A stretch of 64,000 bases of DNA from Trichocoleus sp. (lineage in GTDB: Bacteria; Cyanobacteriota; Cyanobacteriia; Elainellales; Elainellaceae): assembly GCA_036702865.1 (NCBI GenBank), contig DATNQD010000076.1:1-64000 (forward strand), given 5' to 3'. Positions 2,956-49,817 of this stretch are shown here, in pieces; within the stretch, counting starts at the first letter, position 1; each line of letters starts with the position of its first letter. A model generated the notes under the pieces. It worked only from the letters and a program-made list of their open reading frames with translations, searched no databases and had not been told where the DNA came from. The position numbers and the translations under genes were made by a program.

Positions 2956-3474
2956 TTAAACGTCCAAAAAATAGGCTGGATAGTTTACTGTTCCCTCAAC
3001 CTGACTCAACGCATCAGGAGAAAGGGCTTTCACCATAAAAGCCTCGTCTGGAACCTCAAATGGAGCCTGAATCCCATAGCGACTCGCAGGCTCAAATCCA
3101 AACCGTTTGTAGTAGTGAGGATGCCCTAAGACAATGACGATCGCCTGCCCTAAAGCGTGACACTGCGCCAATCCCACCTGAATTAATTGGCTACCAATTC
3201 CCTGCTTTTGCTGAAGAGGGGTGACTGCCAGGGGAGCCAGTGCCAGTGCTGAAACCGGATGCGTTACCGTTTCAATTGTGATTTTGCTGAAGAGAATATG
3301 CCCAACCACCTCTTGATATTTTGCAACGATCGACAATTCCGGCACAAAATTGGCAGAAATCCGAATGCGATCGATTAGATCTGCTTCGTTCGACCGACCA
3401 AATGCAGCAGTGACGGCTGCGCGGATCTGGGGAATATCGGCTGAGGATTCAGCAGCAAAGGTTAGGGAATTCAT
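2956..3474 (-). CDS. GNAT-family N-acetyltransferase (YhbS-like)
   Basis: A 172-aa single-domain acetyltransferase. The acetyl-CoA loop is visible as APLAVTPLQQKQGIGSQLIQVGL, with Q-x-x-G-I-G at about residues 94-99, followed by the strand VIVLGHPHYYKRFGFEPA typical of the YhbS/COG3153 group. The ATG overlaps the stop of the upstream dikinase gene (ATGA), so the two are translationally coupled. The substrate is not predictable. Placed between a dikinase and a BtaA-like enzyme, it may modify an amine or hydroxyl of the cluster's product, but that is inference. Confidence 0.8.
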   Translation of the reverse strand: MNSLTFAAESSADIPQIRAAVTAAFGRSNEADLIDRIRISANFVPELSIVAKYQEVVGHILFSKITIETVTHPVSALALAPLAVTPLQQKQGIGSQLIQVGLAQCHALGQAIVIVLGHPHYYKRFGFEPASRYGIQAPFEVPDEAFMVKALSPDALSQVEGTVNYPAYFLDV

Positions 3475-6068
3475 CGTAATTGCGCGATCTGATCGGCTTG
3501 GGAGGCATCAGAAAAGGGAGGTTCAATTCGCTGCACGATGCCTGTACTTCCATTCATTTCCACCCAATCGCCATCCTGAAGCCACTGAGTCACACCTGAA
3601 ATCGAGACGATCGCCGGAATACCCATTTCACGGGAGACGATCGCGGAATGAGAGAGTAGACTGCCTCGCTCCACCAGCAACCCAGCCGCCGCCGGAAATA
3701 GCATAATCCAACCAGGGTCAGTCCGTTCTGCCACCAGGATACAGCCCTGCTGCAAGACTGCGTTTTTGGGATCAGTAATCACTTGAACGGGAGCACGTAC
3801 AATCCCAGGACAGCAGCCAATTCCTTGCAGTGATTGGTCTGAAGTGGGTGAAATTTGCAGTTTGTCTGGAATCACTTCAGCAAGCGGATGAACCGCACCG
3901 TGAGTCGAAAAGCGATCGGGTGGGGCAGGCAGTTGGCGGTAGGTTTCAAATTCTGCCTGTCGAATTGCTGCTAATTCACTGAGCTTTATGCAGGTGGCTG
4001 TGCCGTCGATCGTGCCCAAAATTTCGTCTAGTTCCAGGTAGAAAATATCTCTGGGATGCTTCAGCAAATCCGCTGCATAAAACCGTTTCCCAAGTTCCAC
4101 CATAATCCGCCGGACACGACCAAAAACCCTGGTTCGCTCAAACCGCAAATTCTCTCGATCGCGCACTCTTGCTCTGGCATTCTGCAACACCCAACCAAAC
4201 AAAAAGCGTCGTAGCGGATAGCTTTTGAACGACTGGCGCACCTTCTCTTCTGCCTGCTGCCGGAGATTAACCTCTGCCCTCTGCCCCCTGGCCCCTGCGC
4301 CCCCGCTTCTCGCTAACTGCCCGATCGATCGCAGCAGCAACAGCGGCTCATCCTGTAAAGTTGCACTTTCGAGCTTCAGTTCTTCCAGGCACCGATCGCC
4401 AAACTTCTCTAAATAAGCCTGGTATTGGGCATAAAATTCAGGAATCTTGGCAATGTCAGACTGGATTTGCGGCAGCAAACCTTCACAGAGCAGCGCGATC
4501 GTTTTGGGGTAGGGCGCGATCGTTTCTGCCATCTGGATCATGCGTTGGGCAGGTTCTGCGCTGATCATGCCACCTTCGCCGCTAATCAAATCATTTTGCA
4601 GCGTTCCATCTTGGTCATCGCACCATTTCACTGTCAACTTTCGCAGCACCCCATAAAAAATCATGGCGAAGAAATCGTTCACCAGAGGCGCATCCCAGCG
4701 AGTCAAAAGCTGGCGTTCTAGATCGTGATAGTAATGAGCTAGCTCATCCGATCGCATGTCTGCCAAATCAGATAGAGGTAGAGCAAGCGCGCGATCGAGT
4801 CGCTGATAAAACTCACGAATTTGATGCGGCAATGTCAAATTGTTTTTTACTAGCCCGATCAGCGTTTGGGCAAGGTGGAGACTGTCTTGTAGTTTGTCGC
4901 CCAAACTGGCAGTCACGACTTCAGCAGCAACTTCGGCAGAAAGCTCTTCTTTCACGCCCATCATCTGTTCCATGAAGCGGCGGTTGACGGTGAATCCGGG
5001 CAACAGTGCCAGCACCCGATACCAGCTCAGTAGATTGTAGTAAATTCGTCCGCGCAGCAGCCCCAACATTTGGCGAAAGGTCGTGTCCTGTTGGGCGATC
5101 GTCTTTTCGGGCACGCCCATCAATCGGCAGAACTGGCGGTAAACCGCTTCATAAGCCCGACGCGCAAAGGAGAAAGTCAGCGGCGTTGTGATCCCACCAT
5201 AGCTTTCCGCAATGTTGCTGTTGTCCCAGAGGTTCAATCTGCCATCTGGATCGGGCAGTTGTGCCAGCGCAGTAATGGGACGGGATTGCAACAAATAAAC
5301 CTGATGATCCTCGATCGCCCATTCAATATCTTGAGGACGGTGAAAAAACTGGGCAGTCTGACGGGCAAGTGCTGCGATCGACTTGATTTGTTCATCGCTC
5401 AGCAGAGGTTCAGCCTCAAGGATTTGGCGCGTCAGAATTTTGCCAGCCCGATCGACCTCATACGTATCTGCATCGGCAGCCCCCGACACCAGCGCATCGC
5501 CCAATCCGCGCACCGCAGAGACGATCGCAACGCTTCGCTGTCCTGTAATGGGGTTGGCACTAAAGGCAACTCCAGCAAACTCCGCTTTCACCATGCGCTG
5601 AATCAGGACGGCAGGCGGTTGAGGCAGAGCGTTGAGCTGATGCTCTTTTCGGTAAGCAAAAATCCGATCGCTAAAGCCCGATCGCCAAACCTCCACCACT
5701 TTCTCAGCCACCTGATCCACAGGCACACTCAAAAAGCTCTCTAGCTGTCCGGCAAAGGAATGAGTTACGCCATCTTCATCCAAAGCAGACGAGCGCACTG
5801 CCAACAATTCTCCCTCTGGGCAAAGCGCTGCCAGAGCCTCAGCCAGTTCTGCCGCAATTGAATCCCTCAGCTTGACCTGTTCCAGGGCAGCCATGAAGTC
5901 TGTGTGTGAGGATCGATCGATTGCCGTCAAACTCGCCGCAAACGCCGCAGGTAAGACCACGATCCAATCGGGAATCAGAACATTTTGCCCTAAAGCCGCT
6001 AACGCACTCGCTTTTCCGCCAAATTGGGTGAGGTCGATCGAATCATTGGGTCGGATTACATATTTCAT
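3471..6068 (-). CDS. PEP-synthase-like ATP-dependent dikinase (rifampin-phosphotransferase-like layout)
   Basis: An 865-aa protein. An N-terminal ATP-grasp domain of the PPDK_N type (about residues 1-270) shows GGKASALAAL, VRSSALDEDG, then FAGQLESFL and ending QDIEWAIE. A long, family-variable middle follows (about 280-770), then a C-terminal swivelling phosphohistidine domain with GSLLSHSAIVSREMGIPAIV, where the His after S-L-L-S would carry phosphate. The PEP/pyruvate barrel of true PEP synthase is absent, so this is not a gluconeogenic enzyme. The layout is that of rifampin phosphotransferase: ATP is split to AMP and phosphate while the His passes phosphate to a substrate held by the variable region. 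In this cluster a prenyl or lipid hydroxyl is a reasonable guess. Its start lies 9 bp after UbiA and its stop overlaps the GNAT start. Confidence 0.75.
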   Translation of the reverse strand: MKYVIRPNDSIDLTQFGGKASALAALGQNVLIPDWIVVLPAAFAASLTAIDRSSHTDFMAALEQVKLRDSIAAELAEALAALCPEGELLAVRSSALDEDGVTHSFAGQLESFLSVPVDQVAEKVVEVWRSGFSDRIFAYRKEHQLNALPQPPAVLIQRMVKAEFAGVAFSANPITGQRSVAIVSAVRGLGDALVSGAADADTYEVDRAGKILTRQILEAEPLLSDEQIKSIAALARQTAQFFHRPQDIEWAIEDHQVYLLQSRPITALAQLPDPDGRLNLWDNSNIAESYGGITTPLTFSFARRAYEAVYRQFCRLMGVPEKTIAQQDTTFRQMLGLLRGRIYYNLLSWYRVLALLPGFTVNRRFMEQMMGVKEELSAEVAAEVVTASLGDKLQDSLHLAQTLIGLVKNNLTLPHQIREFYQRLDRALALPLSDLADMRSDELAHYYHDLERQLLTRWDAPLVNDFFAMIFYGVLRKLTVKWCDDQDGTLQNDLISGEGGMISAEPAQRMIQMAETIAPYPKTIALLCEGLLPQIQSDIAKIPEFYAQYQAYLEKFGDRCLEELKLESATLQDEPLLLLRSIGQLARSGGAGARGQRAEVNLRQQAEEKVRQSFKSYPLRRFLFGWVLQNARARVRDRENLRFERTRVFGRVRRIMVELGKRFYAADLLKHPRDIFYLELDEILGTIDGTATCIKLSELAAIRQAEFETYRQLPAPPDRFSTHGAVHPLAEVIPDKLQISPTSDQSLQGIGCCPGIVRAPVQVITDPKNAVLQQGCILVAERTDPGWIMLFPAAAGLLVERGSLLSHSAIVSREMGIPAIVSISGVTQWLQDGDWVEMNGSTGIVQRIEPPFSDASQADQIAQLR

Positions 6069-7041: not shown

Positions 7042-8337
7042 CTATTCTCCCTTCCCTCTCGCCAATCGCTGATGTGCTTTCGTAAACTCCCCCGAACTCA
7101 GCGCCCCAATAATGGATAGCTCTCCAGCAAGCAGTAGCCCAGCGCAAACTTCGGCAAAGGCTCTCGCATGACCCGCACCCGCTAATCCTAAGATCTTGAG
7201 ACAGGCTTGCTGACTGGGTAATCCGGTTCCTCCTCCCACTGTACCGACAATCAGATTTGGCAGCGTGACCGAGGCATAAAGTGATTCCTCGACAACTTCA
7301 AAGCGCGTGACGCCGATCGCGGATTCTGCAACGCAAGCCGCATCTTGACCGCAAGCAATATAAAGAGCCGCTAACCCGTTGGCATAGTGCCCCTGCACAC
7401 CGATCGTCCCGCTCAAAGTACCACCCAGAGCCGACATTCGCCAATAGTTCACCATTTGTTCTGGGGAAGTGTGAAGCCGCTTTTGCACCAGTTCGGCGGG
7501 TAGCGTCACTTCTGCTGTCACTTTTTTGCCCCGCACTGAAACAAAAGACTGGGCACTGGCTTTCTTGTCGCCAGACAGGTTTGCTTCGACAAAATAGTAC
7601 TGCGGCTGAATTGGAGTGTTTGCCTGAATGTAGCCACAGATGGCTTGCGTAGCGATCGTCACCATATTTTGTCCGGCAGCATCTCCGGTGGTGAACTGAA
7701 AATCGAGATAAACATGGTTGCCCTCGACCGTCAGCCGCATGTCGGTTAGCTTGCCATAGCGAGTGGTTGATTCAGCACACTGTTTAAAGTGATCCTGGTG
7801 ATCGATCGCCCAGACCATGAACTTACCGACTTCCTGCAAATTCCGAAATGCAAAGCCCGGTGTCCGGCTAACCCCTTCATTTAAAAGCATTGCCGCACAG
7901 CCACCAACCTCTGAAATGAGTTGTGCACCGCGACTATAAGAAGCAACTAGCGCCGCCTCAGTCGTTGCCAGCGGAATATAGTAGTCACCTTGAGCAAACA
8001 AGCCATTGACGCGCAGCGGACCCGCAATTCCCACCGGAATTTTTACAGTTCCAATAAAATTCTCAATATTGCGGCGATAGCACTCCATTTGTGCTAGAGT
8101 TTCTGGGTCTGCGAGGGCTGTCTGCGTTTCATCTGATACTGGAAGAAGTTGCCAGCGTTTCGCAATGGCTTCTGGGGTCAGTCTGGAACCACCTGGCATT
8201 TTGGACGATGGCTCGGTTTGCTTTGCCGATAACCGTTGCGCCAATAATTCGATCGCTGCTGCTTCAGAGGATTCAGCCAAACCACCTTGTAAGAGTTGGT
8301 TGATGTAGAGACTGGCATGGCGGTAGTGAGTTGACAT
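7042..8337 (-). CDS. hmgA: Class I hydroxymethylglutaryl-CoA reductase
   Basis: A 431-aa soluble HMG-CoA reductase, which would reduce HMG-CoA to mevalonate with NADPH. The class I motifs are all there: ENFIGTVKIPVGIAGPL, the catalytic Glu in TTEAALVAS (E127), GDAAGQNM of the cofactor site, the catalytic Lys in SGDKKAS (K258/259), GQD (D332), GTVGGGTGLPSQ and the terminal His in TKAHQRLARG (H422). It has no membrane domain, like archaeal enzymes. The start follows AGGAA at good spacing. It is the first gene of the minus-strand cluster, ahead of UbiA. Cyanobacteria rely on the MEP pathway, and no HMG-CoA synthase, mevalonate kinase or decarboxylase is in this window. Either those lie elsewhere, or the enzyme feeds a dedicated product or acts on a related thioester. 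Confidence 0.92.
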   Translation of the reverse strand: MSTHYRHASLYINQLLQGGLAESSEAAAIELLAQRLSAKQTEPSSKMPGGSRLTPEAIAKRWQLLPVSDETQTALADPETLAQMECYRRNIENFIGTVKIPVGIAGPLRVNGLFAQGDYYIPLATTEAALVASYSRGAQLISEVGGCAAMLLNEGVSRTPGFAFRNLQEVGKFMVWAIDHQDHFKQCAESTTRYGKLTDMRLTVEGNHVYLDFQFTTGDAAGQNMVTIATQAICGYIQANTPIQPQYYFVEANLSGDKKASAQSFVSVRGKKVTAEVTLPAELVQKRLHTSPEQMVNYWRMSALGGTLSGTIGVQGHYANGLAALYIACGQDAACVAESAIGVTRFEVVEESLYASVTLPNLIVGTVGGGTGLPSQQACLKILGLAGAGHARAFAEVCAGLLLAGELSIIGALSSGEFTKAHQRLARGKGE

Positions 8338-27874: not shown

Positions 27875-30142
27875 ATGCGTCTTGAAACGCCAACAACACG
27901 CTTGCTCAAACGGGTGCAGTCCTGGCAAAAGGCGATCGTGTCACATTTGGCTGTATCTTCTGCATTTGAGGCTGCGGCAATCGATCGCACTACCCAAAAC
28001 TTCATTTTAGTCATCCTGGTTTTTTATCTCAGTGAACAGCGAGGCATCTGGTTCAGCGATAGATTACCGGAACTGGCAAGAAGCGATCGACTCCATCTTC
28101 GGTTACTGGCGCTGTGGCAAGACTGGCAAACTCACTTCAAGCAAGATATCGGGTTCGATTTATCCCCCGCCGCAACCTTGCCCGATTCCCTCATTCGCTC
28201 CATCCTGGAGGACTTGTATCAGCCTGATCCAGCGCAATTTTCAGCCCTTTCCAGTGCAGTGTTAGGTCAGGTATATGAAGCAATGCTGGGTGGTTCTATT
28301 TCAACCCAAAGCAGCCTTCATCGGCGTTACCCTCCGCAAAAAGCAGGCGGCATTTACTACACCCCCTCCCCGATCGTGCAATTTATGGTGGAACAAACGA
28401 TCGGTGCTTCACTGCAATCTTCTCCCGGCTCACCCCTCTGGATTGTGGATCCGGCTTGTGGCAGCGGCGCGTTTCTGTCAGCGGTCTATCAATTTCTGCT
28501 CAATCATTGGCAAGATCATCCAACCCAATTTCCTGGCGAATTCTCCCAATTATCACCTCATCAAAAACAGGGACAGTTAAGCCCGATCGACCGACAACAA
28601 ATTCTTTTGAACTGCATTTATGGCGTTGACCTTGACCCACAAGCTGTCACAGTGACAAAACTCACACTCTGGCTCAAGTTGTTAGAAGAAACTCCTGAAC
28701 CGATGAGTCAGGCATTACCGGATTTGAACCAGAATCTACAGGTGGGGAATGCCCTGATTGGTACAGATTGTCGTGATTTTCCTGCGCCAGTTTATCCCCT
28801 CGATTGGGAAATGGCATTTCCAAAAATTATGCGATCGGGTGGGTTTGATGTGGTGCTTGGCAATCCCCCTTATCTGGACTCCGAATGGATGACAACCCAT
28901 CTTCCAGCATGGCGACGCTATTGCAACAGTCACTATCGCACGGCAACCGGAAACTGGGATTTGTTTTGCGTGTTTATTGAGAAAACGCTGACCCTTTGCC
29001 GAGCAGGTGGAATGCTCAGTTTCGTTGTGCCAAACAAACTCACTTCAGCAGACTACGCAGCCCAGACTCGATCGCTCCTGCTTCAGGAAACTCATCTCCA
29101 GATCATTCGCGACTATGCCCAGGTTCCAGTCTTCGCCGCATCAGTTTATCCGCTGGTTTATGTCGCCAAACATGTGCCTGCTCCAACTCGATTACAGGTG
29201 CGCTGTGAAGTGATGCAAGATTTAGTGCAAGTTGAGCGATCGGGCTGGCTGACATTTGATTTCAGCGATTCCAGCAATTCCAGCAACGTGCAGACCACTC
29301 GCCCCTGGCAGATCAGTGTCTTTGAGCAGCAGGCAGCCCTCTTACAGCGGTTGAGTGAAACATTTCCACTCCTTGGCTCAATTGCACCCGTTTATGGAGC
29401 AGCAACCGTCGCTGAAGCTTATGCTTTACAACCCTGGATTCAAAATTGTGAAGCCCCTGCTCTGGGTGACTGGCGGTTGGTTAATAGTGGCACGATCGAT
29501 CGCTACAGTATCCGCTGGGGACAAAAGCCCACTCGCTACCTGGGACAGAGCTACCTGCATCCCATCATTCCAGTTGTCAATCAGCAACAGCTCTCGCTCC
29601 GGCGACAAACACAAGCAACCGAACCCAAAATTATCGTATCGGGAATGTCTCGATGCCTGAAATGCACCTTAGATGCAACTGGCAATTTGCTGGCTGGTAA
29701 ATCAACTTGCATTGTACTGAGCGCGCTCGCAAATTCTGGATTGGATCTGCACTACCTTCTGGGATTACTCAACAGTAAGCTGCTCAGCTTCTACTTTGTT
29801 CATCGCTTTGAGGGAAACCGATTGCAAGGCGGATATTTTCGGGTCGGAACGCTGCAAGTACGGCAGCTACCCATTGCAATTCCAGATTTGATGAACTTGG
29901 AGCAACAGAAGTATTACCAGAAAATTATTAGTCTAGTTAAGAATTTAAACAAACAAAAAGGAATAGAATTATCACAACAACAGATATTGTTCACAACACC
30001 GCAGCAAGAACCTAAACTCACAACTGATCATCTTGATCGAGAGATCGATCGATTAGTTTATAAACTCTATCGCGTCACAGATGAAGAAGCAGTGGCGATC
30101 GAACAAGCTCAATCCAGCAGGGATAGCCAACGTCAAACTTGA
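27875..30142 (+). CDS. Adenine-N6 DNA methyltransferase with TaqI-like specificity domain
   Basis: A 755-aa protein of the Eco57I/type IIG methylase layout. The SAM motif is IVDPACGSGAFLSA (about residues 189-202), and the catalytic NPPY is in VVLGNPPYLDSEW (about 325-337), the mark of N6-adenine methylation. A C-terminal target-recognition region (about 500-700) includes SGMSRCLKCTLD and LLGLLNSKLLSFYFVHRFEGNRLQGGYFRV, a TaqI-like specificity domain. The first 150 residues show no PD-(D/E)xK nuclease motif and no helicase, so I call it methylation-only. No separate nuclease gene is adjacent. It may be a restriction-system remnant, an epigenetic regulator or a phage-defence factor. Confidence 0.8.
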   Translation: MRLETPTTRLLKRVQSWQKAIVSHLAVSSAFEAAAIDRTTQNFILVILVFYLSEQRGIWFSDRLPELARSDRLHLRLLALWQDWQTHFKQDIGFDLSPAATLPDSLIRSILEDLYQPDPAQFSALSSAVLGQVYEAMLGGSISTQSSLHRRYPPQKAGGIYYTPSPIVQFMVEQTIGASLQSSPGSPLWIVDPACGSGAFLSAVYQFLLNHWQDHPTQFPGEFSQLSPHQKQGQLSPIDRQQILLNCIYGVDLDPQAVTVTKLTLWLKLLEETPEPMSQALPDLNQNLQVGNALIGTDCRDFPAPVYPLDWEMAFPKIMRSGGFDVVLGNPPYLDSEWMTTHLPAWRRYCNSHYRTATGNWDLFCVFIEKTLTLCRAGGMLSFVVPNKLTSADYAAQTRSLLLQETHLQIIRDYAQVPVFAASVYPLVYVAKHVPAPTRLQVRCEVMQDLVQVERSGWLTFDFSDSSNSSNVQTTRPWQISVFEQQAALLQRLSETFPLLGSIAPVYGAATVAEAYALQPWIQNCEAPALGDWRLVNSGTIDRYSIRWGQKPTRYLGQSYLHPIIPVVNQQQLSLRRQTQATEPKIIVSGMSRCLKCTLDATGNLLAGKSTCIVLSALANSGLDLHYLLGLLNSKLLSFYFVHRFEGNRLQGGYFRVGTLQVRQLPIAIPDLMNLEQQKYYQKIISLVKNLNKQKGIELSQQQILFTTPQQEPKLTTDHLDREIDRLVYKLYRVTDEEAVAIEQAQSSRDSQRQT

Positions 30143-43303: not shown

Positions 43304-46300
43304 ATGAAATCTGCGGAGCAGCAAAAGCCAAGAATTTTGGTTGTGGATGATGAACCAGACAACCTCGATCTGCTGTATCGCACTTTCCACCGAGAATTCA
43401 CGGTTTTTCGAGCTGAGAGTGGGGCAGCAGCCCTCGAAATATTGGCAAAAGAAGGAGAGGTTGCTGTCATCATTTCAGACCAGCGAATGCCCTCAATGAG
43501 CGGCACAGAATTCCTGAGTCTCACTGCAACCCAGTTTCCCGACACAATTCGGATTATTTTGACGGGCTATACCGACGTTGAGGACTTGGTCGAAGCCATC
43601 AACGCGGGCAAAGTGTTTAAATATGTAACAAAACCCTGGAACGGGGACGGGCTGAAGGCAGTCGTGCGGCAGGGCGTTGACACGCACAACATCCTGAAAA
43701 CCCGGACTCAGGAGCTACAGCGCACTCTGCGTCAGAAATCTTTACTCAATGCGGTCACAAGCACCATTCACCGTGCCTCTGGCTATCAGCAAATTCTCCA
43801 GACGATCGCCGAAACGATCGGGCATCTGTTTGAGGCAGACTGCTGTATTGTCCGTCCCTTTCAGGAAGGTCGCCTTCAGCCAGAAACATTTTTCTACAGC
43901 ACCCATCCCTATTTATCGACTCTGGAGTTTCAGAGTCTTTCCTGCACTGTTTGGGAGACTCATGAAGTTGAAGTTGTACAAGATGCCAAGACGCATCAAG
44001 CCGCCGGAGATGACCCCGATCGAGCAGAGGCATATCAAGCTGCCAATATTGCTTCTAGTCTCATTGTGCCGCTGATCTATCAGCAAGAACTGATGGCGGT
44101 GCTGGCGCTGCATCACTGTGGGCAACCCCACCCCTGGCAAACGGATGAAGTGCAGTTGGTCATCATGATGACTGATCAGGCGGTGCTGGCACTGGCGCAG
44201 GCAAGGGCTTATGAGCGAATGCAGGCACTGGCAACTCGCGAAGCATTGGTAAACACGATTACCGCAGCAATTCGATCGAGCCTTGACCCGCAGGAAATTT
44301 TTGCGGCGATTACGCAACAGCTCGGGCTAGCGCTTCACACGGATGGCTGTGCTTTGTCCCTCTGGACTGAAGACGCAGAATATGTGCAGTGTGTGGGTCT
44401 ATACGATGGGACAGAAGCCGATTTGTTGCCTTTGTCCACTTATCCTCTAGACGAAAAAAGTCGTTCCCAACTGCCGCAGTCGCTCGTACCGATCGAAGGC
44501 AACCCAGTTTTGCAACAGTTGCTAAACACCCAAGCCCCTGTGGTGATCAACGATCTGGGCCAGCATCCAGAGATGAATATTTTGGATTTGCCGCTGCGAT
44601 CGGCTGCCTGTGCGCTGCTGGTGGTTCCTTTACTCTATAACGGCAAGATCATCGGCAGTATTTCGCTGCGTCAGGTGCATCAGCCCCGGAAATGGAAACG
44701 ATCGGAAGTGGAGCTGGCGCAAGCAGTCGCGGCACAAGCAGCAATTGCAGTACAGCAGTCGCGGCTCTATCAAACCACCCGTCAACAAGCCGAACAGCTA
44801 CTCGAACTCGATCGCCAAAAAACCGAGTTTTTTCAGAATGTCTCCCATGAGTTTCGCACTCCCTTAACGCTGACGATCGGACCTTTAGAGTCGGCAGTCG
44901 AAAAAGGTGAGGGGCTATCTGCTGATCAGTCTGTGATTGCTCTCCGCAACTCACGGCGGCTATTGCGGTTGGTGAATCAACTGCTCGACCTGCAACGATT
45001 GGATGCTGGACGAATGCAGCCCAGTTTCCGCCCCTGCGACATTCAGGAATTTGTTGGGCAAATTGTCGATTCATTCCGTCCTTATTGCCTCAAGAAGCAG
45101 ATCAGGCTAGAAACCCGCCTCACAGATTGTCCACTCATTTATTTGGACTTAGAGAAATTCGATAAGGTCTTGTATAACCTGCTCTCCAACGCCATCAAAT
45201 TTACTGCGGCTGGTGGGGCGATCGAGGTGAACCTGAAGACTGCTGGCGACCATAGCCTGATCCAGGTCAAGGACACCGGGCTGGGCATTCGTCCTGACCA
45301 AATTCCCCACTTGTTTGAGCGATTTCGTCAGGCAGATGGGTCTGCGAGCCGCAGTCATGAGGGCAGTGGTTTAGGGTTAGCCTTGGTGAAAGAATTGGTT
45401 GAGCTGCATGGCGGCAAAGTTACGGTGGAGTCGGTTTATGGCGAAGGCACAACCTTCACTATCTGGCTCAAAACCGGAGCCGCCCACTTACCCACTCAAC
45501 AGGTGCTCGAAATCCCGGCTGAAGTCGAACAGAGCCGAGCCGTTGTGGAACTGGCAGATGTTGAAACAGAGCTACAGGGTGGGGATTGGCAGCAGCAGAG
45601 CGGGGAGGACGAGCAACAGCAGGAACCGGGAACAGTCCGTTTACCGAAGATGGCTCATCATCCTTTAGCAAAAAACCCTTCTCCCTTTCGCATCCTGGTA
45701 GTTGAAGACAACGCGGATATGCGGAACTATGTTTCTAGCGTGTTGCAGCGATCGGGCTACCGGGTTTCAACGGCACGACATGGAGCAGAAGGCTTCGAGG
45801 TTGCGCAAAGTTTACGTCCTGATCTGATCCTTACTGATCTAATGATGCCGCTGGTCTCTGGATTAGAAATGATTGAGCAGATCCGGCTGAATGAAGAGTT
45901 GCGCGGTACGCCGATTATTTTGCTGACGGCAAAGGCAGATGCAGATACGCGAATTGAGGGGGCAGAGAAGGGAGCAGATGCTTATCTGTCGAAGCCGTTT
46001 AACGATCGAGAACTGCTGGCGGAAGTGCGAAATTTGCTGGCGCTGAAGGAGAACGAACGGAAAGTCGCAGAACTCAATACTTACCTGACGCAATCGGTCT
46101 TACGGCGATTCTTGCCTCCAGCACTGGTGCAAAAAGCCGCCAAGGGAGAACTCACGCTCGATCTGCGTCCAGAACCGCGCATGATTACAGTTTTGTTCAG
46201 CGATATCATTGGCTTCACCCAACTCTCGAACACGCTTCGATCGCGCCGAGTCGCCGAATTGCTCAACGAGTATTTAACTGAAATGACTCATGCCATTTTT

Positions 46301-46768
46301 GATAATGGCGGTACGGTTGATAAGTTTATGGGCGATGCAATTCTGGCAATTTTTGGTGCACCAGAGGAGATTAGCCCCAATGAGCAGGTGAGACGTGCTA
46401 TCGCTGCGGCTCGACAGATGTATCGCAACTTGAATCAGCTCAATGAACGCTGGCAGCAACAGGGCATTAGTCAGGTGCAGTTTCGCTGCGGCATCCATCA
46501 GGGAACGGCAGTAGTGGGAATGTTTGGCGGTGAAGAACGGGCAGACTATACGGCGATCGGTCCCAGTGTCAATATTGCTGCTCGGATTCAAGAAGCCGCT
46601 GAGCCAAATTCAATTCTCGTTTCGGCTGCGGTCGCAGATTATTTAGAACTGACCGAGGAAGCGATCACCAAATTTAGCCCACTCAAGCTGAAAGGCGTTG
46701 ATGAAACTGTTCTTACTTTCTCAATCCATCCAGAAGTAGGGAAAACTGCTCAAACTCATCCTGGCTAA
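43304..46768 (+). CDS. cyaC: CyaC-type hybrid histidine kinase–adenylyl cyclase
   Basis: A 1154-aa multidomain signal protein: receiver (about residues 8-125, phospho-acceptor Asp59 in ISDQRMPSMSG), two GAF domains (about 150-305 and 320-490), HisKA with His514 in NVSHEFRTPLTL, HATPase with N-box YNLLSNAIKFT and DTGLGIRP, SGLGLALVKEL, a second receiver (about 796-912, Asp844 in LTDLMMPLVSG) and a class III cyclase (about 950-1115). In the cyclase both metal Asp are present (LFSDIIGFT, FMGDAILAIFG), as are the adenine-specifying Lys (VDKFMGD) and DYTAIG, and the NIAARI transition-state residues, so cAMP synthesis is expected. Domain order matches CyaC of Anabaena and Arthrospira, in which phosphorelay controls cyclase activity. 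AGGAGAAGC precedes the ATG. Confidence 0.93.
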   Translation: MKSAEQQKPRILVVDDEPDNLDLLYRTFHREFTVFRAESGAAALEILAKEGEVAVIISDQRMPSMSGTEFLSLTATQFPDTIRIILTGYTDVEDLVEAINAGKVFKYVTKPWNGDGLKAVVRQGVDTHNILKTRTQELQRTLRQKSLLNAVTSTIHRASGYQQILQTIAETIGHLFEADCCIVRPFQEGRLQPETFFYSTHPYLSTLEFQSLSCTVWETHEVEVVQDAKTHQAAGDDPDRAEAYQAANIASSLIVPLIYQQELMAVLALHHCGQPHPWQTDEVQLVIMMTDQAVLALAQARAYERMQALATREALVNTITAAIRSSLDPQEIFAAITQQLGLALHTDGCALSLWTEDAEYVQCVGLYDGTEADLLPLSTYPLDEKSRSQLPQSLVPIEGNPVLQQLLNTQAPVVINDLGQHPEMNILDLPLRSAACALLVVPLLYNGKIIGSISLRQVHQPRKWKRSEVELAQAVAAQAAIAVQQSRLYQTTRQQAEQLLELDRQKTEFFQNVSHEFRTPLTLTIGPLESAVEKGEGLSADQSVIALRNSRRLLRLVNQLLDLQRLDAGRMQPSFRPCDIQEFVGQIVDSFRPYCLKKQIRLETRLTDCPLIYLDLEKFDKVLYNLLSNAIKFTAAGGAIEVNLKTAGDHSLIQVKDTGLGIRPDQIPHLFERFRQADGSASRSHEGSGLGLALVKELVELHGGKVTVESVYGEGTTFTIWLKTGAAHLPTQQVLEIPAEVEQSRAVVELADVETELQGGDWQQQSGEDEQQQEPGTVRLPKMAHHPLAKNPSPFRILVVEDNADMRNYVSSVLQRSGYRVSTARHGAEGFEVAQSLRPDLILTDLMMPLVSGLEMIEQIRLNEELRGTPIILLTAKADADTRIEGAEKGADAYLSKPFNDRELLAEVRNLLALKENERKVAELNTYLTQSVLRRFLPPALVQKAAKGELTLDLRPEPRMITVLFSDIIGFTQLSNTLRSRRVAELLNEYLTEMTHAIFDNGGTVDKFMGDAILAIFGAPEEISPNEQVRRAIAAARQMYRNLNQLNERWQQQGISQVQFRCGIHQGTAVVGMFGGEERADYTAIGPSVNIAARIQEAAEPNSILVSAAVADYLELTEEAITKFSPLKLKGVDETVLTFSIHPEVGKTAQTHPG

Positions 46769-47190
46769 ACGCCTGACATCAGCATTCTCTCCAGACTAAG
46801 GAAACACAAGCCTGAGCGATCGGGTGTCATTATTTGTTGATGCAATTGGTGAATGGGGCGATCGAACAACTGTGGAAGAAGGTCGCAGAGATACAGAATT
46901 CTGCTGTTTATCCCTCGCGGGAGGGCGAATATACAGATTAATTGTTGTTTACTCCTCCGCTTTAGTTGTGAATACACATCAACCTGTATGCCTATCTCGG
47001 CTGTTAGAGTAAATACACAGAGTAGCTCTGTACAATAAATTGTTATCCGCCTTAAGTTCTCTCCTAATTCAAGTCTGCAATACTGATTTTCCTCTTATTG
47101 ATTTGAGAAAATCGTGGTGGTGTTACCTTCTGAGAAGGACTCAGTTAACAATAAGGTCTAAGATAAATATTGATTTAACTCCAAAATAAT
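46769..47190. other. Intergenic before the AT-rich island
   Basis: 422 bp. The left half has normal composition with one CGATCG near 46859; the right half (from about 46990) is AT-rich. A small CCCTC/GAGGG hairpin lies at 46912-46925. No gene seen. Confidence 0.4.
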
Positions 47191-48069
47191 ATGGATAGAC
47201 GACGTAAATTACTAGTCAACAACTATGAAAAATTGGCTGATGAATTAATTACTAAGGCAGTTGCTCCTTATAACGCTAGAATCTGTCCAAAAGTTGGATT
47301 GAAAGACATCATTAAGCTCTCAGGTTCCGGGATAAGCACTGAGGAGTATTCTTACGCTCTCAAGGCACATATTGACTTTTGTGTAGTTAATAGTGATGAC
47401 TACATTGAATTTGGTCTTGAAATTGATGAGTCACATCATCTTTCCAACCCAGAAGTAATTAAAAAGGATAAACTCAAAGATAAATTATGTTCAAAGTTGG
47501 GGTTCCCTTTGTTGCGAATCAGTGACAAATCTCTCGAACGGGTCAAAGAATTGGAGCTTTTGGCTTGGTTGGCATCATACTACTTTGTTTTCTCAGATCT
47601 ATCCAAAAGTAGAAAAGACTTGAGGGAGCCTGAGAACCAGAGAAAATTGTTTTTATTGAGAGAGCCATTTGTATATTCACCTTTTGCTGATTCTCATGAA
47701 TCAATACAAAATTTTGAAAGAGCAGGTTTATTTGAGCTTGTTTCTCATGAACTACCAGCCTGTGTATCCCACAATTCAGAAACGTACTTCATCTCTTGGG
47801 CTGGAGTTCCTCTAAGAAGCCCAGGTGTTCCTATAGGGAGTAAACCGTTCTTGTATTCTAAGAAGGCATTTAGAGCATTCAACAATTTTGCAGGAATATA
47901 TCCATTTCAGCTTTCTGAAGGTTTAGCTATTGTTGAACTTGATAGAAAAATAAGAGATTATGTCAATGGCTTTTACAGTCCAGAAGAAAATGAGACATTG
48001 GATACGATGTCTAAAGAAATAGCCGAAGAATACTTCAAAATCGAAAATTTTAGAAAATTGAGAGATTAA
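47191..48069 (+). CDS. DUF2726-like protein, nuclease-fold candidate
   Basis: A 292-aa protein. The middle segment AHIDFCVVN, then FGLEIDESHHLSNPEV, then KKDKLKDKLCSKLGFPLLRIS follows the DUF2726/PD-(D/E)xK plan: Asp in a DF strand, E-x-D with following HH, and Lys/Asp-rich helix ending in a small LLRI strand (about residues 68-112). The remaining 180 residues, including two WAGVPLRSPG-type segments, are unlike anything I know. Base use is AT-rich and CGATCG sites are absent, which suggests horizontal transfer. It may be a nuclease-like part of a mobile or defence module. Confidence 0.55.
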   Translation: MDRRRKLLVNNYEKLADELITKAVAPYNARICPKVGLKDIIKLSGSGISTEEYSYALKAHIDFCVVNSDDYIEFGLEIDESHHLSNPEVIKKDKLKDKLCSKLGFPLLRISDKSLERVKELELLAWLASYYFVFSDLSKSRKDLREPENQRKLFLLREPFVYSPFADSHESIQNFERAGLFELVSHELPACVSHNSETYFISWAGVPLRSPGVPIGSKPFLYSKKAFRAFNNFAGIYPFQLSEGLAIVELDRKIRDYVNGFYSPEENETLDTMSKEIAEEYFKIENFRKLRD

Positions 48070-48466
48070 TTTAGATGTAATACTCGTCAATAGTCTAAGC
48101 ATCCTGCTCACCGTAGCTACAAGTATTGACGTATAACAATTGCAGCGCAGTGAACTGAAGGAAACCGCCGGTACTGAGTTCAAGTTTTTGGTAATCGCTG
48201 AGTGCAACCGTTAGCTAGTTCAATCTTCAGTGGAGGACTAGTCGTGAGTCTGCCTAATAGTTTTCAATCATTTAGTGACTATAAAGTTTTTACAGGACGA
48301 CTGCTATTAAGTTGCTTTAGGGAAAACTAGCTTTTACATGTTAGCTAAACATATGGGCATCTCGAAAATAGATTTAATAACGACTAGAATTCTTAAAATC
48401 TCATGGATAATTGTTATTAAAATTGTTTTGCCCTCAGTAAACTTAAATTGATCGAGGTGCTTATAT
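48070..48466. other. Intergenic within the AT-rich island
   Basis: 397 bp. A patch of higher GC at about 48120-48240 interrupts the AT-rich DNA, but I cannot assign it; the longest frame there is a 24-codon stretch without a start. Confidence 0.35.
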
Positions 48467-49051
48467 ATGCTGAATGAATCAGTAATCAGAGTCGGAATGT
48501 TTATAATTGCTTTTTTAGGACTTATTATAACTCTTGCTATCAATCGTGAGAAATTGCAGCGATCAAAGCTCAAAGTTGAGATAATAAATGACGCTTTTAA
48601 AGTGAATTTTAGAACTGATCAGATACTCGACTTTCAGATAAACTTGAGGATTCAAGCAATAAACGGAAAAATTTGTCTTAGAAAAATCGTATTAATTTGT
48701 AAGAAAGGTTTGTTTGATTGGCAAGATTTAGAAGTTTTTGAGAAAGCTGTCAATATTGGAGGAGATTTAACAAAGTATAACGAGGATGAATTTGACCAGT
48801 TTATGAGCTGTGTATTCCTTGAGTGTGGCTGTTCAAAAATCATTGAATATGAAAGCCGATTTAGAGAATTCATTCAACTTAGAGATTTAATTTTAGAAAA
48901 AGATATCCCACGTTCTATTACACTTTTGGGCAGAATATGTGATTGGCAAAAAAAATACAGATTCTTCTTGCAATTTGACTATGATTTAAACGGATCTAGA
49001 AGGAAGTTATCCAAAAAATTGGACTTTGAAAAATATCTTCAGAAGGGTTAG
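48467..49051 (+). CDS. Membrane-anchored protein of unknown function
   Basis: A 194-aa protein. The N-terminal helix VGMFIIAFLGLIITLAI (about residues 9-25) is followed by a cytoplasmic basic stretch (NREKLQRSKLK) and a 150-residue charged domain rich in Lys, Phe and Ile. The domain is not recognised. AT-rich like its neighbour; GAGG lies 11-14 bases before the start. It could be a partner of the DUF2726-like protein, since both sit in the same island and on the same strand, 397 bp apart. Confidence 0.6.
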   Translation: MLNESVIRVGMFIIAFLGLIITLAINREKLQRSKLKVEIINDAFKVNFRTDQILDFQINLRIQAINGKICLRKIVLICKKGLFDWQDLEVFEKAVNIGGDLTKYNEDEFDQFMSCVFLECGCSKIIEYESRFREFIQLRDLILEKDIPRSITLLGRICDWQKKYRFFLQFDYDLNGSRRKLSKKLDFEKYLQKG

Positions 49052-49423
49052 AATTTCTCAGCATAGTGTTCTCTTAGAAAGAAATTCCTGCTACAAAAAG
49101 GTTAACAGAGGATAGATATGACCTGAATAGGAGAAATTTAAATGAGAAATTGCTGAGAACGCAAGCTAAGAACGCCCATGCACACCGAGCGCCTAAAGTT
49201 GATCGGTCATGATACAGAAGCAATTTGCAGCAGGTGGTGGGCAACGTTACCTTACAGTAAAATTATAAAGATATAGCCTTTTCAGTAAGGTGCAGATAGA
49301 GAACTTAGGTTCCCTGTTTAACAGCGTTCTGTGTACCTCACCAGCATAGAAAAGGCTGTAGCTTCTGCCAGTTTGTTGGCTGCATTGCTCCCTTAATCTA
49401 GAGTGCTTTATTAGATACCCGCT
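49052..49423. other. Intergenic at right end of the AT-rich island
   Basis: 372 bp. AT-rich to about 49140 and then closer to the genome average. No intact gene; a 31-codon frame from 49178 was judged too weak. Confidence 0.35.
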
Positions 49424-49678
49424 CTAAGACTCAGAGACTTCATTTGCTTCGATCGCTTCCTGAATGTAGAGTTGCGCGAGTCGATCGTACATTCCGGCTC
49501 CAATGTACATCGGGTATTTGTGAGATTTGCTGTAGACCCAGATCACTTCATCCAGCAAATAAATCCGGACATCTTCCGTCCAGCCTTTGCATTGAGGCAT
49601 CAGCGACTTTGCCGCTTCCAGCGCATCTGTCCAGCGTTCAAACTCTTGAGAATAGCGAGGCGTCACAACCTTAAACAT
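49424..49678 (-). CDS. Conserved small hypothetical protein, 84 aa
   Basis: An 84-aa protein: MFKVVTPRYSQEFERWTDALEAAKSLMP, then GWTEDVRIYLLDEVIWVYSKSHKYPMYIGAGMYDRLAQLYIQEAIEA. The alternation of strands and helices and the dense conserved-looking aromatic pattern point to a folded domain. I recall similar short cyanobacterial proteins but no name or role. It follows acnB on the same strand, past the terminator. Confidence 0.65.
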   Translation of the reverse strand: MFKVVTPRYSQEFERWTDALEAAKSLMPQCKGWTEDVRIYLLDEVIWVYSKSHKYPMYIGAGMYDRLAQLYIQEAIEANEVSES

Positions 49679-49755
49679 GATGAGTGTTCGAGCGAGATTC
49701 TTCTTTCATCATGAAACGTTTTGTCAGTCTTTTCACATTCAAACAACTGGCAGCA

Positions 49756-49786
49756 ACAAAAAAAGAGACACGAAATACCGTGCCTC
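49756..49786 (-). terminator. Terminator of acnB
   Basis: On the minus strand GAGGCACG (49786-49779) pairs with CGTGTCTC (49772-49765) around GTATTT and is followed by TTTTTTTG. It lies 32 bp beyond the acnB stop. Confidence 0.85.
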
Positions 49787-49817
49787 CTAAAATAATTGTT
49801 TCCAGCCAACCGCAGGA

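Follow-up and report, generated by a model that had tools for sequence, protein, structure and literature searches.

Genes in the window

The window, meaning the whole stretch of DNA that was analysed, covers 64,000 bases (1-64000 on a contig of 68,142 bases) from a cyanobacterial genome of 5.93 Mb that is rated 100% complete. An HMG-CoA-reductase-like gene lies at 7042-8337; the plus-strand reading of this interval has many stops, and the open reading frame (ORF) is on the minus strand. It is the first gene of a same-strand run, followed by genes for a UbiA protein, an Rph/PEP-synthase-like dikinase, a small GNAT protein, a DUF3419 protein and a membrane protein referred to here as KIN:

7042-8337, minus strand, HMG-CoA-reductase-like (class I fold) reductase, 431 aa
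6078-6989, minus strand, UbiA-family membrane prenyltransferase, 303 aa
3471-6068, minus strand, PEP-synthase/Rph-like ATP dikinase, 865 aa
2956-3474, minus strand, small GNAT acetyltransferase, 172 aa
1843-2943, minus strand, DUF3419 protein (BtaA-like SAM-dependent enzyme), 366 aa
150-1556, minus strand, membrane protein KIN, kinase-like, 468 aa

The contig starts at base 1, just past KIN, and any continuation of the run beyond that gene is out of view. Intergenic gaps along the run measure 52, 9, -4, 12 and 286 bases, and the first four of these suggest that at least the first five ORFs could form one transcript. A promoter scan gave matches no more numerous than those in shuffled sequences.

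The reductase is matched by the Pfam model HMG-CoA_red over residues 58-427 (E 3.4e-117, 392 bits for a cut-off of 27). In the PDB it is matched best by 6hr7, a class I enzyme from an archaeon (294 bits), and class II HMG-CoA reductases (HMGRs) reach at most 40 bits in the same comparison. Residues E127, R158, K258, K259, D332 and H422 were confirmed letter by letter. The catalytic residues Glu559, Lys691, Asp767 and His866 (human numbering) correspond to E127, K258, D332 and H422, and are kept, together with Arg590, across the reductase clade described below. The first-pass annotation of the locus, which recognised a class I HMGR with intact catalytic residues (E127, K258/K259, D332 and H422), agrees in this respect with both the Pfam and the 6hr7 matches. 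The strand, the genes that follow on it, the changed substrate pocket and the orthologues in three more cyanobacteria are additions to that annotation.

Three further features of the window were recorded. A segment at 46800-49800 has a low GC content (0.39-0.43, against about 0.50) and looks like an acquired island; its ORFs encode a DUF2726 nuclease-like protein (47191-48069) and a protein without a Pfam match (48467-49051). An Eco57I-type restriction-modification methylase with a TaqI-like specificity domain is encoded at 27875-30142. Finally, a large hybrid protein at 43304-46768 combines response regulators, GAF domains, a histidine kinase and an adenylate/guanylate cyclase domain.

A seven-gene set in diverse phyla

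Among named genomes, 80 relatives were retrieved that share 50-71% identity with the window reductase. About half of these are followed downstream, on the same strand, by genes for UbiA, the dikinase, DUF3419, KIN, a further acetyltransferase-like protein (GNAT2) and an AMP ligase. The conserved order is HMGR-UbiA-PEPS-DUF3419-KIN-GNAT2-AMPL, rearranged in a few loci. The full set of seven is found together in 31 loci, which span nine named phyla (Verrucomicrobiota 11, Pseudomonadota 6, Thermodesulfobacteriota 3, Bacteroidota 3, Planctomycetota 2, Acidobacteriota 2, Deinococcota 1, Chloroflexota 1 and Fibrobacterota 1, with one locus not assigned to a phylum). The run in the window represents the first five cluster genes in their conserved order, plus the small GNAT, a relative of which adjoins DUF3419 in one other cyanobacterium (L217). 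The remaining two members are encoded elsewhere in the host genome, GNAT2 at C36:88199-89083 and the AMP ligase at C36:131721-133277. The set is apparently undescribed so far: a literature search of limited scope found no description of it, which is weak evidence of novelty.

An HMGR-family gene is present in 20 of 386 Cyanobacteriota genomes. Within the host's class there are only four carriers, namely the host, a genome of the same family assembled as a single 5.5-Mb contig (73% identity) and two others (71%). Carriers in other classes mostly have a divergent HMGR with about 24% identity to the window reductase, followed in several cases by a kinase gene of the type expected in a mevalonate operon; several also possess a second gene with about 35-42% identity to the window reductase. 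Six-gene clusters lacking the reductase were found in one family (f31) of other-class Cyanobacteriota (L201-L205), with no conserved substitute reductase adjoining them, and a three-gene part (UbiA, dikinase and DUF3419) in one cyanobacterium (L200).

All four reductase-bearing cyanobacteria of the host's class also have UbiA, the dikinase, DUF3419, the AMP ligase and GNAT2, mostly scattered through the genome. In the other three, identities are 55-56% for UbiA, 59-66% for the dikinase and 67-71% for DUF3419; the AMP ligase is matched at E <1e-150, and GNAT2 is present, in one genome as a fragment where a contig ends. Just one further genome of this class has a strong UbiA match. With kinship ignored, the probability that four reductase carriers would overlap fully with five UbiA carriers by chance comes to about 1e-6 in a set of 100 genomes, and is lower still in a larger one. 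Since the partners are scattered and yet co-occur, this distribution points to a shared function rather than to mere neighbourhood.

Partner enzymes

The UbiA protein keeps the Asp motif DExKDxxxD found across the family, and its profile matches digeranylgeranylglyceryl phosphate synthase and chlorophyll synthase, weakly, as the nearest solved relatives. The dikinase (3471-6068) has an ATP-binding domain and a swivelling phospho-His domain in which His807 is conserved, an arrangement like that of the Rph, PigC-RedH and PEP synthase dikinases. It differs from these in gene context and in falling below every NCBIfam cut-off (best 768.5 versus 883). Among solved structures it is best matched by three distinct sequences of Rph size, which their depositors named phosphoenolpyruvate synthase.

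The DUF3419 domain is recognised with confidence (PF11899, E 1.8e-74), and the structure model, also confident, has a SAM-methyltransferase fold. BtaA of betaine lipid synthesis, a member of the same Pfam family, converts diacylglycerol and SAM to diacylglycerol-O-homoserine (PMC10685587). No gene resembling that for the BtaB methyltransferase of the BtaA/BtaB system is found among the recurrent neighbours of the cluster. The nearest NCBIfam relatives of the AMP ligase are PRK09274 (411.6 against a cut-off of 478) and OleC (245 against 900), so that it resembles PRK09274 ligases and the OleC-type beta-lactone synthetases while missing both cut-offs.

KIN is a remote match to CTP_transf_1 proteins (CTP-using lipid kinases and CDP-DAG synthase), with a weak DUF92-like half. 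A fold search gave no significant match, CDP-DAG synthase being the top hit with a probability of 0.84 and an E-value of 0.38. Eight loci (L042, L045, L047, L049, L050, L053, L061 and L208) have a YegS/DAGK lipid kinase and no KIN, and clusters with KIN have no adjoining YegS/DAGK, although one (L123) has a remote copy about 7 kb away. This mutual exclusion has a Fisher p of 5e-5, from a hand-counted table with kinship ignored. As YegS/DAGK adjoins the cluster genes only where KIN is missing, one seems to replace the other functionally, and KIN is taken as a lipid kinase, an assignment that the remote CTP_transf_1 match fits and for which the fold search is only suggestive. The putative roles of DUF3419, KIN and GNAT2 are all based on remote homology.

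In one divergent reductase an APH-type kinase domain is fused to the HMGR-like domain (L057:348-2681), as would suit a product alcohol that is then phosphorylated. Near the fusion gene lie a dikinase gene and two genes of nucleotide-kinase type.

Substrate pocket and HMG-CoA supply

The substrate pocket was compared with those of the human and archaeal enzymes, in human numbering, for 91 sequences (51 cluster-type, 33 Vibrio-type and 7 from a deep group). In plant and human HMGRs, the HMG part of statins is held by a polar contact from Ser684 and by a salt bridge from Lys735 (PMC9500038). The Ser684 position is acidic in 91/91 sequences, with Glu in 51/51 of the cluster type, Asp in 32/33 and Glu in 1/33 of the Vibrio type, and Asp in 6/7 and Glu in 1/7 of the deep group. 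The window reductase has Glu at this position and Gln at that of Met657, the latter being found in all 84 sequences outside the deep group. Met655-Gly-Met657 has become [A/S]-G-Q in the cluster-type and Vibrio-type groups, where the DAMGMN motif reads DAAGQN or DASGQN; the deep group mostly has DAYGAN. Pro693, Asn697 and Gly701 are also mostly altered in the clade. No Lys is aligned at Lys735, and the adjacent column holds Arg in most cluster members and Gln in most Vibrios. Loss of Lys735 was considered as a clean marker of the clade, and is weakened as such by the adjoining Arg in most cluster members.

The NCBI equivalog model for HMG-CoA reductase, TIGR00533, has a cut-off of 441.8 bits, which the window reductase misses at 328 bits; the window protein and seven clade members score 309-356 bits, and an archaeal control 636. 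Of the 30 genomes tested, which with few exceptions carry a clade reductase, 29 lack HMG-CoA synthase. The sole HMG-CoA-synthase-like match (L218, G213) belongs to a polyketide-type cassette with an enoyl-CoA hydratase and tandem carrier domains.

The view we lean towards is that the product of the gene is a soluble reductase of an acyl-CoA, dependent on NADPH and of the class I HMGR fold, that HMG-CoA is probably not its substrate, and that it serves a seven-gene lipid pathway. The strongest competitor, which we consider possible but rather unlikely, is a true HMG-CoA reductase that would draw HMG-CoA from leucine breakdown instead of from HMG-CoA synthase; mevalonate would then be its end product, or a building block that the cluster attaches to a lipid. 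Relative to class I HMGRs of solved structure (Methanothermococcus 6hr7, human 1dq8 and plant 7uli/8ecg), the clade has in common the fold, the catalytic Glu, Lys, Asp and His, and Arg590, Asp690, Lys692 and Asn755. Arg590, Asp690, Lys692, His752 and Asn755 are all kept in its main clade, and with the Arg beside the Lys735 column in most cluster members they suggest that HMG-CoA could still bind. A true HMGR would also account for the archaeal HMGR as best solved match. On the other side, the same comparison sets the clade apart by its uniformly acidic Ser684 position, by DA[A/S]GQN in place of DAMGMN, by the unconserved Lys735, by scores under the equivalog cut-off and by hosts without HMG-CoA synthase. 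These losses of HMG-binding residues, the missed cut-off that the archaeal control passes and the missing synthase speak against the earlier expectation that the enzyme should work, as far as work as an HMG-CoA reductase is meant.

Stand-alone reductases in Vibrio and relatives

In a tree of 48 rows, with two true HMGRs as the only outgroup, the reductase clade is monophyletic (SH-aLRT 97), the cyanobacteria group together (88) and the Vibrios are nested inside the clade. The pathway partners are absent from Vibrio, Photobacterium, Aliivibrio and Thalassotalea, which hold the reductase all the same, an indication that the enzyme can serve outside the pathway. These stand-alone class I-like HMGRs of Vibrionaceae belong to the same clade, at about 57-64% identity and with the pocket changes in common, and differ in having no surrounding gene cluster and Asp instead of Glu at 684. 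A literature search on the function of the Vibrio HMGR gave nothing usable. Among the loci with a solitary reductase (L074-L129, Vibrionaceae and relatives), Vibrio splendidus has a FUSC-like membrane gene upstream, and genes of similar size lie upstream of the reductase in several others.

The Vibrio-type enzymes raise the alternative that the job of the reductase depends on the host: in lineages with the cluster it would act on another acyl-CoA, and in the stand-alone lineage on HMG-CoA or some other compound. That they form a subclade with Asp for Glu at 684, mostly Gln near Lys735 and none of the rest of the pathway is consistent with such a division. However, the Vibrio branch lies inside the cluster clade and has the Met657 to Gln and Gly701 to Val changes too, and we regard host-dependent substrates as improbable.

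Isoprenoid synthesis in the host

The host genome contains one HMGR gene. HMG-CoA synthase (PF01154) is absent from this 100%-complete genome, and mevalonate kinase, phosphomevalonate kinase and the decarboxylase are absent from among its GHMP proteins; the three GHMP kinases that are present are, judging by their sequences, the putative galactokinase GalK, IspE and the homoserine kinase ThrB. IspH is also present. With IspE and IspH in place and no mevalonate pathway, the host makes its isoprenoids via the MEP route, in keeping with the MEP-only metabolism that the first-pass annotation cites for cyanobacteria in general. Its statement that the window holds no other mevalonate gene extends to the whole genome, and its suggestion of a partial or complete mevalonate pathway elsewhere is ruled out.

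A remnant of, or entry into, a mevalonate pathway for isoprenoid synthesis in the host has the family name alone in its favour and is refuted by gene content, with all four further enzymes absent from a complete genome, IspE and IspH present, and non-photosynthetic Cyanobacteriota having a different, divergent HMGR gene next to a mevalonate-operon-type kinase gene. Assembly contamination, which the first-pass annotation had named as grounds for withdrawing the finding, is likewise ruled out: the contig is short (68 kb) and no support for contamination was found, while three further cyanobacterial genomes, including one assembled as a single 5.5-Mb contig, have orthologues that fall together with the window gene in the tree.

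A proposed lipid pathway

Returning to the acyl-CoA reductase that we favour, the seven-gene set most likely builds an amino-group-bearing lipid. The AMP ligase would activate an acid, and the reductase would use NADPH and the HMGR reaction to reduce a CoA thioester to the corresponding primary alcohol. The Rph-like dikinase and the KIN or DAGK lipid kinase may then phosphorylate alcohols, UbiA may join a prenyl or alkyl group, DUF3419 would add a 3-amino-3-carboxypropyl group from SAM, and GNAT2 would acylate the amine. That these activities belong together is supported; the cofactor, the substrate, the order of steps and the product are what we infer from them. Two distributions count against this reading, namely the solitary reductases of Vibrio and its relatives and the six-gene clusters that lack the reductase (L201-L205). 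The second option of the first-pass annotation, a reductase serving a dedicated product, is supported.

A broader proposal can be made, for which we see the arguments as evenly balanced. It holds that an HMGR-fold family acting on a substrate other than HMG-CoA feeds an undescribed seven-gene lipid pathway in about ten phyla, a few cyanobacteria among them, with the solitary Vibrionaceae HMGR as an offshoot.

Implications for orphan HMGR genes

Orphan HMGR genes in bacteria that use the MEP pathway are an acknowledged puzzle, as in Streptomyces with HmgR and a complete MEP pathway (PMC13001223). A large group of such genes is now linked, across nine phyla, to a fixed order of six partner genes and also to a diagnostic pocket change, and the puzzle becomes directly testable through the partner gene set. 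For this reductase clade, the annotation as HMG-CoA reductase, and the mevalonate calls built on it, may be wrong.
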